A stretch of 11,003 bases of DNA from Bacillota bacterium. Its GTDB lineage: Bacteria; Bacillota; Clostridia; Tissierellales; Sporanaerobacteraceae. Each line of letters begins with the position of its first letter. The stretch's first letter is position 1. The translations under genes and the position numbers were made by a program. Below, in pieces: positions 2-3,426 of this stretch. The notes below the pieces were generated by a model. That model searched no databases. It was not told the origin of the DNA and saw only the letters and a list, made by a program, of their open reading frames with translations. Location of the stretch: assembly GCA_029779375.1 (NCBI GenBank), contig JAKPAR010000145.1, positions 1-11,003 on the forward strand. Reading direction: 5' to 3'.

Positions 2-664
2 GATATAGAGAATAAAGTTGAAATGAATTTTTTAAAGACCCATCTTAAACAAATGGAAAGCTTGTACAATGTGTTGAGAACTCAAAATCATGAACATAAA
101 AGACATATTCAGACCATTCAATCTATGATTTATTTAGATGAGATACAGTCTGCAAAGGAATATATTGATGGTTTAAGCCAAAACTATAGTCGAACAGATG
201 ATATCATATATGTGGGGAATATGGCCTTGACAGCTCTCATAAATGAAAAGAGAAAAGTAGCAGAAATAAACAGTATAGATTTTGGATTTTCCATAAATTG
301 CATCTTAAGTAAACTAAGGATAAGTTCTTGGGATTTATGTAGTGTATTGGGAAATCTCTTGGACAATGCTTTTGAAATTGTCATGAAGAAAAGAGACAAT
401 AGACAAGTAAAGTTAGAAATCAATTATGTATATGACAAATATGTTGTTGAAGTGTCTAACAATGGAGAAAAGATATCTGAAGTAGAAATAGATAAAATAT
501 TTGAGCCAGGATATACCACCAAAGGTTCTGTAGGAAGAGGATATGGATTGTTTTTAACTAAAAGTCTTATAGAAAAGTATGGTGGTACTATAGAGGTATA
601 TTGTCAAGAAAATACTGTTTTTCAAATAATGTTTCCATGTAAAGAAGGTGAAGTAAGTGAATAG
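2..664 (+). CDS. AgrC-like GHKL sensor histidine kinase, 3' part (5' end outside window)
   Basis: This is the cytoplasmic C-terminal half of a peptide-sensing histidine kinase. The frame is open to the window edge, so the membrane sensor domain lies upstream. Numbering from the Met at 23, a linker helix leads to an H-box (RTQNHEHKRH; likely phospho-acceptor His23). An N-box NLLDNAFE (111-118), a G1-like VSNNG (144-148), an F-box FEPGYTTK (160-167) and a G2 box GRGYGL (171-176) follow. An Asn-rich G1 box and an H-box of this shape are usual for the HPK10/AgrC class. The gene ends 8 nt inside agrB, which implies translational coupling. With AgrB, AgrD and a LytTR regulator next door, it most likely detects the AgrD-derived cyclic peptide and phosphorylates the regulator at 1429-2157. 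The family call is firm; the ligand is inferred from context. Confidence 0.9.
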   Translation, partial: DIENKVEMNFLKTHLKQMESLYNVLRTQNHEHKRHIQTIQSMIYLDEIQSAKEYIDGLSQNYSRTDDIIYVGNMALTALINEKRKVAEINSIDFGFSINCILSKLRISSWDLCSVLGNLLDNAFEIVMKKRDNRQVKLEINYVYDKYVVEVSNNGEKISEVEIDKIFEPGYTTKGSVGRGYGLFLTKSLIEKYGGTIEVYCQENTVFQIMFPCKEGEVSE

Positions 665-1289
665 AGATTTTGCTTTAAAAATTTCAACTAAATTAGCTAA
701 AAAACTAGATGGAAGCAAACAAGATGTTGAAATTTGGGCTTATGGCTTGGAAATAATCTTGAACTCCGTTATCAAATTTTTAATTATAGCTGTATTGTCT
801 GTTTTTTTAGGAATTTTTCAATATACTATGTTTTGTATTATAGCTTTTGCCTTTTTTCGTCATTTTGGTGGAGGGGTACATTTTAGTACTTATTTGCGAT
901 GTTTAAGTTTTGGAGTTGTAAATTTTTTGATTTCAGGGGAAATAGCTTCTTTAGACAAAGTTTTAATTGTTCATGAGATACTTTTTTATATAACATTGGC
1001 TTTAGGAGTGGCAGCTATTCTTAAATGGATTCCTGCTGATACCAAGAAAAAACCTATAAAAGAAAAAGAGAAAATAAAAAAGCAAAAAATTAAAACTACT
1101 GTTGTTTTAATATCTTGGCTAATACTTATAATATTTTTGGACAAGCACGGGAAAGACACCTATATTCCAGCTATTACATTGGGAGCCTTTGAGAGCCTTT
1201 TATTTATGACTCCTTTTGGATACTGGACGATAAATGAAATAGACAATTTTTTAAATAAAATATTTATAAAAACTGAGGAGGTGAAATAA
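657..1289 (+). CDS. agrB: AgrB-type membrane peptidase processing the quorum-sensing propeptide
   Basis: AgrB is an integral-membrane cysteine endopeptidase that removes the C-terminal tail of AgrD and closes the ring of the autoinducing peptide. The family signature is clear: FRHFGGGVHF followed by Cys, giving His75 and Cys82 with the seven-residue spacing of the known catalytic His/Cys pair. The 210 residues match the family size, and there are several hydrophobic segments (about 35-66, 83-95, 105-122, 146-161, 171-188). A Lys-rich cytoplasmic stretch lies near 126-145. The start is GTG at 657, 6 nt after AAGGTG and overlapping the kinase gene by 8 nt. agrD begins on the base after the stop codon, as expected for a processing enzyme and its substrate. 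Confidence 0.95.
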   Translation: MNRDFALKISTKLAKKLDGSKQDVEIWAYGLEIILNSVIKFLIIAVLSVFLGIFQYTMFCIIAFAFFRHFGGGVHFSTYLRCLSFGVVNFLISGEIASLDKVLIVHEILFYITLALGVAAILKWIPADTKKKPIKEKEKIKKQKIKTTVVLISWLILIIFLDKHGKDTYIPAITLGAFESLLFMTPFGYWTINEIDNFLNKIFIKTEEVK

Positions 1290-1412
1290 ATGATTAAAGG
1301 TATTCTTTCTATTTTCGCATCAATATTAGGGATAGTTGCTTCTACAGGAGCTAATGCTGCTAGCGTGTTTATTTTTTATGAACCAGATGTGCCTAATTGT
1401 CTAAAGAAGTAG
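1290..1412 (+). CDS. agrD: AgrD-like autoinducer propeptide (40 aa) with Ser at the ring-forming position
   Basis: This 40-residue ORF starts at the base after the agrB stop and has a near-perfect Shine-Dalgarno, GAGGAGGTG (1275-1283), 6 nt before the ATG. The layout is that of AgrD: an N-terminal hydrophobic/amphipathic leader (residues 1-20), a small-residue GANAA segment (20-24), the core SVFIF (25-29), and a Pro/acidic tail YEPDVPNCLKK (30-40). The core and tail line up without gaps with clostridial precursors of the form CxWFTxQPEEPKSL. At the ring-forming position this protein has Ser25 (agc, 1362-1364) in place of Cys, so the mature signal would be a lactone. Cys37 lies in the discarded tail and cannot be the ring residue by this alignment. 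Identity as AgrD is strong from position and layout; the exact processed ends are inferred. Confidence 0.9.
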   Translation: MIKGILSIFASILGIVASTGANAASVFIFYEPDVPNCLKK

Positions 1413-1428
1413 GAGTGGATGATTTTTA

Positions 1429-2157
1429 ATGAAATTTCTTGTTTTAGAAGACGAGGTCTATACTCGAAAATTTATCAAAAAAATCATACTGGAAAATTCT
1501 ACTGAATCTGAAGTATTTGATACATCAAATAGTAGAGATGCTGTAGATATAGTTATAGCTCAAAATCCACAAATAGCTATTCTTGATATGGAACTTGAAG
1601 GCGATGATTTAAATGGTTTGGAAGTAGGTAGAATGATTCAAAAGATTAGTCCTGAAACAAAAATGGTTTTTGTCACTGGACATTCTAAGTATGCAGTATC
1701 TGCTTTTGAAGTACATCCTTATGACTATATTTTGAAACCTATAAATGTCAAGAGACTTATAGAAACCATAGTGACTTTAACTAGAAACCTAGAAAAAAAT
1801 TTCATGGATGGGAAAAGAGGTATTGAGAAAATTGTAGTCAAAAATGGCCATGAGATGCTTTTTGTACCAGTAGATGATATATCATATATAGAAAAGGCTA
1901 ATAGAAAGACTTTTATACATGATGGGAAAAATTTTTATTCTGTTCAAGATACTTTGCAGGAATTGGAGAAAAAATTAGGAAATAATTTTTTGCGAGTTCA
2001 CAAGTCTTATATTGTAAATAAAGACAAAATAGATAAAATAAAAGAGGTTGGGGAAAGAACATATGAAATTAAGTTTTTAAATAGTCATAAGGTAGCATAC
2101 ATGAGCAGAACAGGATATGGGAAATTTAAAGAAGAGTTAAAAAAATGGATATTGTAA
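1429..2157 (+). CDS. AgrA-like LytTR-family response regulator
   Basis: This is a two-component transcription factor of 242 residues. The receiver domain (1-about 120) shows the acidic pocket E7/D8/E9, phospho-acceptor Asp53 in ILDME, Thr83 in FVTGH and Lys103 in LKP. The LytTR DNA-binding domain (about 133-238) carries the diagnostic FLRVHKSYIVNKDKI. The start ATG at 1429 follows AGGAG overlapping the agrD stop (1411-1415); the spacing of about 13 nt is long, although AGTGGAT lies closer. It closes the kinase-agrB-agrD-regulator locus and is followed by a strong terminator. It is the expected partner of the upstream kinase and would bind LytTR direct-repeat boxes, candidates for which lie at about 2237-2303. 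The symbol agrA would be reasonable but rests on context. Confidence 0.93.
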   Translation: MKFLVLEDEVYTRKFIKKIILENSTESEVFDTSNSRDAVDIVIAQNPQIAILDMELEGDDLNGLEVGRMIQKISPETKMVFVTGHSKYAVSAFEVHPYDYILKPINVKRLIETIVTLTRNLEKNFMDGKRGIEKIVVKNGHEMLFVPVDDISYIEKANRKTFIHDGKNFYSVQDTLQELEKKLGNNFLRVHKSYIVNKDKIDKIKEVGERTYEIKFLNSHKVAYMSRTGYGKFKEELKKWIL

Positions 2158-2191
2158 AAAAATAGTACGCCAATATTGGCGTACTATTTTT
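2158..2191 (+). terminator. Perfect 34-nt palindromic terminator after the agr-like locus
   Basis: The segment is an exact inverted repeat: AAAAATAGTACGCCAAT is followed by its reverse complement, ending in five T. As RNA it forms a stem of at least 14 bp with a small AU loop and a 3' U-tract. It starts at the regulator's stop codon and should end the agr transcript. The 5' A-run makes it symmetrical, so it could also act on transcripts from the other strand. Confidence 0.93.
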
Positions 2192-2236
2192 GTGCCTAAT
2201 TTTACATGAAAGGTGGCTGGTTAAACATGAAAATAG

Positions 2237-2269
2237 GACAGTTGTGAAAAGCTGGAGGGTTTTTAATAT
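2237..2269 (+). promoter_or_regulatory. Candidate promoter with LytTR/VirR-like half-site
   Basis: A possible -35 TTGTGA (2242-2247) and -10 TAATAT (2264-2269) are separated by 16 nt, upstream of the small ORF at 2325. The -35 overlaps GACAGTTGTGAAA (2237-2249), which contains the CAGTTNT core of VirR/AgrA-type LytTR boxes. A second matching box at the canonical spacing is not evident. Both promoter and operator are tentative. Confidence 0.3.
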
Positions 2270-2302: not shown

Positions 2303-2324
2303 ATTGCTGAAGGAGTGTGTGTTT

Positions 2325-2483
2325 ATGGGTCTTATAAAAAATGAATTAAAGGATCTTTGTATTATAGTCATATTCATGCTGGATTCCTTGAAAAAGGAAG
2401 GCCTCATAAGCGAAGAAGAATATATAAAAAATACTAAAGTAAAAGAAGAATTTTTGGAAAACTTTTCTGAAAGAGTGATTTAA
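2325..2483 (+). CDS. Small uncharacterised protein (52 aa), SHOCT-like
   Basis: This small ORF starts at ATG 2325, 9 nt after a good Shine-Dalgarno AAGGAG (2310-2315), and ends at TAA 2481-2483. The 52-residue product has a hydrophobic patch LCIIVIFML (11-19), then DSLKKEGLISEEEY (20-33) and a charged helical end. The middle part resembles the SHOCT pattern (L..Lk..GlIteeEy..kK), a short helical module often found at protein C-termini but also alone. It is not long enough to be a membrane protein with confidence. It lies between the agr-like locus and the DUF1002 gene and may be transcribed separately from both. No specific function can be given. The good ribosome binding site and amphipathic, non-random composition argue that it is real. 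Confidence 0.65.
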   Translation: MGLIKNELKDLCIIVIFMLDSLKKEGLISEEEYIKNTKVKEEFLENFSERVI

Positions 2484-2533
2484 AGCGATTTTGCTCTTGT
2501 AAAATTTGTAATAATAAGTTATTCTATGATATA

Positions 2534-2542
2534 TGGTATTAT
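2534..2542 (+). promoter_or_regulatory. Candidate extended -10 promoter for the DUF1002 gene
   Basis: TGGTATTAT matches an extended -10 element (TGn plus TATTAT at 2537-2542). No good -35 hexamer stands at 17 nt, which extended -10 promoters tolerate. Initiation near 2549 would give a leader of under 20 nt containing GAGGTGAT (2555-2562). This is tentative. Confidence 0.35.
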
Positions 2543-2565
2543 AAAAACAAATTCGAGGTGATATC

Positions 2566-3426
2566 ATGTTTGAAAGAATAACTTCTATTTTAATGGTGTT
2601 TATTTTATTGTTTTCTAGTTTTGCAATTGCAGATGGAGTATCTACTACAGATAGAGTTGTAAGTATAGGTAAAAACTTGACAGACTCTCAAAAAAATCAG
2701 ATATTAAGTTATTTTGGTGTGGATAAAGATATAGAAATAGTAGAAGTGACCAATGAAGAAGAAAGACAGTATTTAGGGAAATATATAGATGCTAAACTTT
2801 TAGGGACTAGAGCTTTATCATGTGCTTATGTAGAAAAATTAAATGAAGGAGAAGGTATAACTGTAGAAACTCACAATATAACTTGGGTTACAGAAGATAT
2901 GTATAAAAATGCCTTGATTACTGCAGGAATAAAAGATGCAAAGGTAATTGTCGCAAGTCCTGTGAAAGTTTCAGGAACTGCTGCTCTTACAGGAATCATG
3001 AAGGCTTTTGAAGATATTACGGGAGAAAGTTTAACCAAAAAAGAAAAAGAAGTTGCTAGTGAAGAAATAGCTAAAACTGCAATGCTTGGAAATGAAATAG
3101 GTCAAGAAAAGGCTAGCGAATTGATTGAAAACATAAAAATAAATGTGGTTGCAAACAATATAAGAAGCAAGAAAGATATAAGAAGAGCAGTACAGGCAGC
3201 AGCAAAAGAATTGGGTGTAGAATTGACAGATGAACAGACAGATGAAGTTGTTGCTCTCATGAAGAGAATTGCAAAATTAAATTTAGATTTAAATGATATA
3301 AGAACTCAACTTAAAGATATATCAGGGAAAATAGATAAGATTTCAAAGCAGAATGAAGAAATAAAGTCTTTATTGAATAGGATTATTGACTATTTTGGAC
3401 AACTTTTTAGTAAGCTTTTTGGATAA
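2566..3426 (+). CDS. Secreted DUF1002 (YpuA-family) protein
   Basis: This is a 286-residue exported protein of unknown function. An N-terminal signal peptide is visible: a short charged start, hydrophobic core ILMVFILLFSSFA (8-20), and an A-I-A site for cleavage after residue 22. The DUF1002 region follows (about 33-210), with the family hallmarks NLTDSQKNQIL (37-47), GTRALSCAYVEKL (80-92), THNITWVTEDMYKNALITAG (102-121) and SPVKVSGTAALTGI (131-144). The C-terminal part (about 240-280) is predicted coiled coil, with regularly spaced hydrophobic residues in a Lys/Asp/Glu-rich segment. There is no transmembrane anchor at the C-terminus. The start ATG lies 3 nt after GAGGTGAT. B. subtilis YpuA is the best-known relative and has no assigned function. 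Its position after an agr-like locus is suggestive only. Confidence 0.88.
   Translation: MFERITSILMVFILLFSSFAIADGVSTTDRVVSIGKNLTDSQKNQILSYFGVDKDIEIVEVTNEEERQYLGKYIDAKLLGTRALSCAYVEKLNEGEGITVETHNITWVTEDMYKNALITAGIKDAKVIVASPVKVSGTAALTGIMKAFEDITGESLTKKEKEVASEEIAKTAMLGNEIGQEKASELIENIKINVVANNIRSKKDIRRAVQAAAKELGVELTDEQTDEVVALMKRIAKLNLDLNDIRTQLKDISGKIDKISKQNEEIKSLLNRIIDYFGQLFSKLFG

Follow-up and report, generated by a model that had tools for sequence, protein, structure and literature searches.

A serine-closed ring predicted for the AgrD signal of an agr operon, probably from Sporanaerobacter

How an AgrD precursor closes its signal when serine stands where the ring-forming residue is expected is the question raised by the locus described here. 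The window, that is, the whole stretch of DNA analysed, comprises 11,003 nucleotides and is an entire contig (C117) from a genome that is 88.8% complete and divided into 402 contigs. Weighing the evidence below, we consider it likely that the window carries a working agr operon in the order agrC-B-D-A, probably from Sporanaerobacter, and that its signal is closed through Ser25 as a lactone.

Gene content, family membership, conservation of Ser25, the AgrB catalytic residues and synteny were obtained as direct results. Both a sensor kinase and a LytTR response regulator accompany agrB and agrD (Table 1), and the regulator is followed by the small gene, the DUF1002 gene, gltX, cysE, cysS, an RNase III-like gene and further genes. 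Gene order between agrC and the RNase III-like gene is the same in four relatives, namely a congener (G001), Anaerosalibacter bizertensis (G002), the MAG coal_NL1.3 (G004) and A. massiliensis ND1 (G005); Sporanaerobacter and Anaerosalibacter are both placed in the Sporanaerobacteraceae, Tissierellales (NCBI taxonomy). The syntenic counterparts in the congener are 82-96% identical to those of the window (77% for the small gene), and the truncated kinase shares 90% identity with the C-terminal portion of the congener's whole 450-aa kinase. Judged by the AgrD identities given below, the host is most likely Sporanaerobacter. In the 88.8% complete source genome, agrB gave the only PF04647 match. 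The regulator at 1429..2157 scored under the cut-off of the NCBIfam AgrA model (60 of 400 bits). Searching with AgrB alone yielded no locus in the species genomes, an AgrB alignment search yielded three loci there and none in viral contigs, and the sole match of AgrB among solved structures was a ribosomal protein (E 0.42). In the window and the four relatives alike, the SHOCT-like small gene and the DUF1002 gene (2304-3426) adjoin agr.

Table 1. Coordinates of the agr operon and the adjoining features in the window
Feature	Position	Strand	Evidence and remarks
agrC-like sensor kinase, 5' part lost at contig edge	2..664	+	SpoB-type alpha-helical and GHKL ATPase domains; Pfam HATPase_c 64.5 bits, HATPase_c_5 46.5
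agrB, peptidase-cyclase	657..1289	+	PF04647 128 bits; putative catalytic His75 (879-881) and Cys82 (900-902)
agrD, signal precursor	1290..1412	+	TIGR04223; predicted ring Ser25-Phe29 (1362-1376), then Tyr30-Glu-Pro-Asp-Val-Pro35
agrA-like response regulator, receiver and LytTR DNA-binding domain	1429..2157	+	Pfam LytTR 80.1 bits, Response_reg 63.4
Terminator-like inverted repeat, then T run, 3' of operon	2164..2191	+	By eye
Degenerate direct repeats, period 21, possible LytTR-regulator site 5' of small gene and DUF1002	2192..2245	+	Window copy alone no better than chance
SHOCT-like small protein, possible ATG start at 2325	2304..2483	+	SHOCT 16.5 bits, under the cut-off of 27
DUF1002 protein, candidate target gene	2566..3426	+	PF06207 272.7 bits

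To judge from its sequence, the product of 1290..1412 is a genuine AgrD. This forward-strand reading frame encodes 40 residues, MIKGILSIFASILGIVASTGANAASVFIFYEPDVPNCLKK, and matches NCBIfam TIGR04223 (quorum_AgrD) with 43.2 bits (E 3e-11, cut-off 19); with the Pfam staphylococcal AgrD model (PF05931) it reached 12.8 bits, under the cut-off of 22.7. The agrB gene ends one base 5' of the agrD start and contains GGAGG within its 3' end. The first-pass annotation, made from the letters of the window, had placed agrD directly after agrB, with Ser25 encoded by AGC at 1362-1364 and Cys37 as the sole cysteine, and the coordinates, the codon and the TIGR04223 match all agree with it. Ser25, the predicted nucleophile, lies seven residues N-terminal to Pro32 of the [EQ]P motif, and Pro35 completes a P-x-x-P tail, a pattern described as the AgrB recognition region (PMC8748961). 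The cysteine that defines thiolactone autoinducing peptides at the ring position is replaced here by Ser25, and Cys37 lies beyond the cut site.

Close relatives show the same arrangement. The window AgrD is 85% identical to that of Sporanaerobacter acetigenes and 88% identical to that of the congener G001; Ser25, the preceding ANAA and the following YEPDVP are constant in the three proteins, and the predicted ring varies (SVFIF in the window, SMFIY in G001, SILIY in S. acetigenes). The Ser25 codons are synonymous (AGC in the window, AGT in G001). The annotation had proposed aligning AgrD from close relatives to see whether serine is fixed; both of these relatives carry Ser25, and it is thus not the case that all relatives have cysteine. 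An AgrD-alone search of 5.8 billion proteins matched only the protein itself and that of S. acetigenes.

A broader sample was drawn from the order, in which all 91 TIGR04223 matches came from 61 of 249 genomes. Seven residues N-terminal to the [EQ]P proline, 52 of these AgrDs carry Cys, 26 Ser and 4 Thr, a further 6 have Ser directly preceded by Cys, 2 have Cys only one place earlier, and 1 (L090) falls outside these categories; ten labels were assigned by eye (L020, L024, L028, L029, L063, L065, L073, L080, L086, L090). For the 70 AgrDs with a nearby AgrB, the same categories hold 43, 19, 1, 5, 2 and 0 members, no AgrB having been found for the other 21 of 91 within the fetched stretch of about 1.5 kb per side, which in some cases ends at a contig end. 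Thirty of the 91 have Ser or Thr and no Cys beside it; they come from 15 of the 29 genera and 12 of the 17 families with matches. In 7 of the 61 genomes this type and the Cys type occur together. This frequency, along with a published clostridial serine lactone, speaks against the exceptionality of serine that the annotation had implied. Its description of the ring as unusually hydrophobic was likewise rejected: by mean Kyte-Doolittle value over ring residues 2-5, calculated for the 81 order AgrDs with C/S/T at the place found by regular expression, 8 have a more hydrophobic ring than the window and one more shares the window's ring.

In the class, TIGR04223 matches occurred in 90 of 293 genomes, and 90 loci, the better-scoring matches down to E 3.8e-7, were sampled. 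A regular expression assigned 48 to Cys, 30 to Ser and 5 to Thr (one with Cys before it), leaving 7 others, of which five lack the [EQKD]P anchor but have Cys by eye and two have Cys one place earlier. This expression favours C/S/T in its choice of anchor, and the count from an unanchored alignment of 88 order, 88 class and 118 database unique sequences is preferred. Herein, the Ser25 column holds C, S or T in 86/88 order sequences (C49 S33 T4), 82/88 class sequences (C49 S28 T5) and 118/118 database sequences (C108 S10), with another residue in only 2/88 and 6/88 of the order and class. The corresponding figures are 8/88, 13/88 and 12/118 for the column after it and 49/88, 23/88 and 20/118 for the column before it. 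Because the Ser25 column is nearly restricted to C/S/T and its flanking columns are not, we take this to mean that the column requires a nucleophile, and the earlier placing of serine at the ring-forming position is thereby sustained. Among the database relatives, of which 120 are listed out of 285 matches found with 20 chosen query sequences, 109 carry Cys and 11 Ser, serine being rarer in this score-ranked list. A share of about a third for Ser/Thr therefore applies to the genome samples only and not to the score-ranked database list, where 10 of 118 unique sequences have Ser. The annotation had also set Ser25 against a cysteine in clostridial AgrDs; this holds for the wider family, as the 109 of 120 listed relatives attest, but not for the nearest genus, where the cysteine is placed opposite Ala24, one residue earlier, in addition to Ser25.

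Several further precursors deserve mention in their own right. Threonine occupies the ring column without a neighbouring Cys in L017, L018, L020, L023, L126, L144, L172 and L183, and a Thr-closed lactone, if true, would be a further chemical type. In L100, L128 and L133, two cysteines in a row stand at and just before the ring column (TCCYWVL[HY]QP), offering two neighbouring candidate attackers. The core SVFIFYEP recurs in L062, from another family of the order (G235), with a different leader and a TCT serine codon; the same predicted signal in the window and in so distant a locus could point to cross-talk or to convergence. In addition, a Ser-type AgrD with NIGTTSMFLMYQPEPPKNLKK is identical over the part read across three families and one residue off in a fourth genome (L145, L151, L153 and L141; G375, G342, G270 and G431), as if it were borne by a mobile element. 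Among the open-licence papers listed by full-text searches, no title or abstract beginning announced this locus or a count of Ser/Thr precursors, and such a survey may well exist.

The sister genus provides the closest comparison. The Anaerosalibacter agr locus (L094, L096) shares with the window the syntenic operon, Ser25 and the EP-x-x-P tail, but its AgrD reads GASTCS[VA][LM]I[YFL][YH]EP, with Cys24 opposite Ala24 and beside Ser25, so that either residue may close the ring and Ser25 need not be the attacker there, a point against reading the window by analogy. The earlier remark on a single-base change between Ser and Cys holds for the codon but does not describe the difference between the genera, as the cysteine of the sister genus is residue 24 (TGT) and Ser25 (AGT) is kept. 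AgrB trees were built in a quick version of 66 sequences (four shorter than 130 aa left out) and a careful version of 59 (seven long-branch rows left out), neither with an inferred root. The window AgrB falls in a clade of 8, with support of 99 in the quick tree and 100/99 in the careful tree, made up of 2 members of the window genus, 3 of the sister genus and 3 from two other families. Ser25 is common to the whole clade (8/8), and Cys just before it is confined to the 3 sister-genus members. Because the other members have Ser without Cys, a gain of Cys24 in Anaerosalibacter would be at least as simple as a loss in Sporanaerobacter on this unrooted tree. Furthermore, two order AgrDs, L065 and L080, lack the Ser and carry a Cys one place before it, which suggests that a cysteine there can serve in ring closure; a six-residue ring is given for C. 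acetobutylicum (PMC12312760). A second, different agrBD occurs in A. massiliensis (L091, G005), with serine in the ring column (NTASILFWGEP) and a GEPECP tail, and the tree neighbours of its AgrB include Cys types.

When the Cys-Ser rows are excluded, parsimony between Cys and Ser/Thr needs at least 8 changes on the quick tree and at least 5 on the careful tree; for the Cys group, well-supported branches alone force 3 and 4 changes, respectively. Serine is encoded by AGC or AGT in the window and G001 and by TCT in L062, L025, L091, L064 and L028, and these two kinds of codon fit more than one origin.

The bond that closes the ring, the termini of the mature peptide, its receptor and its targets are inferred from these observations. 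In the mechanism proposed for AgrB, a Cys acyl-enzyme is attacked by the ring residue (PMC4979651). Applied to the window, AgrB would cleave AgrD after Phe29 and keep the peptide bound to Cys82 as an acyl-enzyme; attack on this intermediate by the Ser25 hydroxyl would give the five-residue ring Ser-Val-Phe-Ile-Phe, a predicted lactone because serine is the attacker. The leader would then be trimmed, leaving no tail or one Ala, and the peptide would bind AgrC and lead to phosphorylation of the LytTR regulator, which would probably regulate its own operon and might also act on the unit of the small gene and DUF1002. The His75 and Cys82 columns are invariant in 66/66 aligned AgrBs. Since AgrB has both the His and the Cys, and a Ser25-Phe29 lactone is on record from Clostridium thermocellum, the SVFIF lactone is the best prediction; this is the product that the first-pass annotation had named, and it stands as the likeliest one.

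It is also conceivable, at a clearly lower probability, that Ser25 closes the ring and the active form is something other than the plain lactone, either with Ala24 kept as a tail or with the ester rearranged to an all-amide ring through the free amino group of Ser25. By eye, Ala21-Asn-Ala23, N-terminal to Ala24, resembles a signal-peptidase site. Tail-less clostridial rings can rearrange (PMC12312760), but the identically numbered peptide of C. thermocellum matched the tail-less lactone (PMC5322536). Very improbable is a signal that is linear or closed through the tail Cys37, with Ser25 not the attacker. Cys37 is the sole cysteine of the window AgrD; against this, Cys37 lies past the cleavage site, almost only C/S/T occur in the Ser25 column, and many AgrDs with a ring Cys have a cysteine in the Cys37 column as well (69/118 database, 19/88 order and 12/88 class sequences). 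Less likely still is a decayed AgrD that has lost its cysteine and makes no signal, an idea for which the sister-genus Cys at the neighbouring residue, opposite Ala24, could be cited. The operon and the AgrB catalytic residues are intact, Ser25 is kept in three related sequences, the agrD of the congener differs from that of the window by 8 synonymous as against 5 amino-acid codon differences, and Ser without Cys recurs in two other families of the AgrB clade; ring closure through Cys37 and decay were both rejected on the common tail Cys, the conserved Ser25 column and the intact operon. An error of sequencing or assembly at the serine codon, for which the fragmentation into 402 contigs might be invoked, is practically refuted, since G001 and S. 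acetigenes independently share Ser25 and the AgrD cluster at 90% identity holds 3 sequences on 26 contigs, the longest of 2.27 Mb.

Ring closure by Ser25 as a lactone thus being the preferred reading, the possible targets of the signal may be considered. In the congener, ACAGTTAGG-N12-ACAGTTAGG lies 5' of agrC with a third copy in register, and the ACAGTTAGG direct repeat resembles the AgrA site of S. aureus. This is the sole zero-mismatch match in five genomes, the agrC upstream region being absent from the window. With one mismatch, the five genomes contain six matches, four of them upstream of agrC within about 0.55 kb; genome-wide, the sites total 66 as against 98 in a reversed control and so fall below the control. 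Copies with period 21 between agrA and the small gene were seen by eye in all five sequences, of which the script cut-off flags only L094 and L095, and the window's own copy (expected 0.69, present in 101 of 200 shuffles) is no better than chance. The period-21 repeats 5' of agrC and of the DUF1002 unit point weakly to targets; feedback of the regulator on its own operon is likely, and control of the DUF1002 unit is a suggestion.

Taken by itself, the window locus adds one more predicted lactone signal of a known type, and the comparison weighs more. A tentative view, which we hold to be rather less probable than its contrary, is that lactones are no exception here: about a third of the AgrDs in the sampled genomes would rely on Ser or Thr, with repeated exchange against Cys (5 to 8 parsimony changes), the Cys24-Ser25 pairing may let one AgrB lineage alternate between a thiolactone of six residues and a lactone of five, and Thr rings would form a further type. 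Taking thiolactones for granted would mislabel about one in three precursors of the order and class samples. In addition, Ala24-Ser25 and Cys24-Ser25 at the same locus in sister genera form a natural pair for the choice of attacker and ring size by AgrB, oxygen versus sulphur.

Among known systems, the nearest parallel is AgrD Clo1313_2818 of C. thermocellum, for which LC-MS/MS with a synthetic peptide as reference confirmed the Ser25-Phe29 lactone (PMC5322536). As in the window, cleavage is predicted at Ala24/Ser25, the lactone has five residues (Ser25-Phe29), Tyr30 follows and the proline is conserved, whereas that gene, by the paper's account, is not surrounded by an agr operon and the window has agrC-B-D-A intact save for the cut kinase (PMC5322536). 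The Agr2 signal of Clostridioides difficile, listed as NSA[SSWVA], also begins its five-residue ring with Ser and comes from a full agrBDCA locus, but it has a three-residue tail, another ring sequence and another gene order (PMC12312760). The S. intermedius group peptide RIPT[STGFF] and GBAP of Enterococcus faecalis, QN[SPNIFGQWM], are likewise Ser-closed lactones from AgrD-type precursors, and differ in their long tails and, for GBAP, in a nine-residue ring (PMC12312760, PMC3673130); in the S. intermedius group, a change from Ser to Cys weakened the response (PMC3673130). The AIP of Clostridium perfringens, [CLWFT], finally, has a five-residue ring, given without a tail, and is closed by Cys, hence a thiolactone (PMC12312760).
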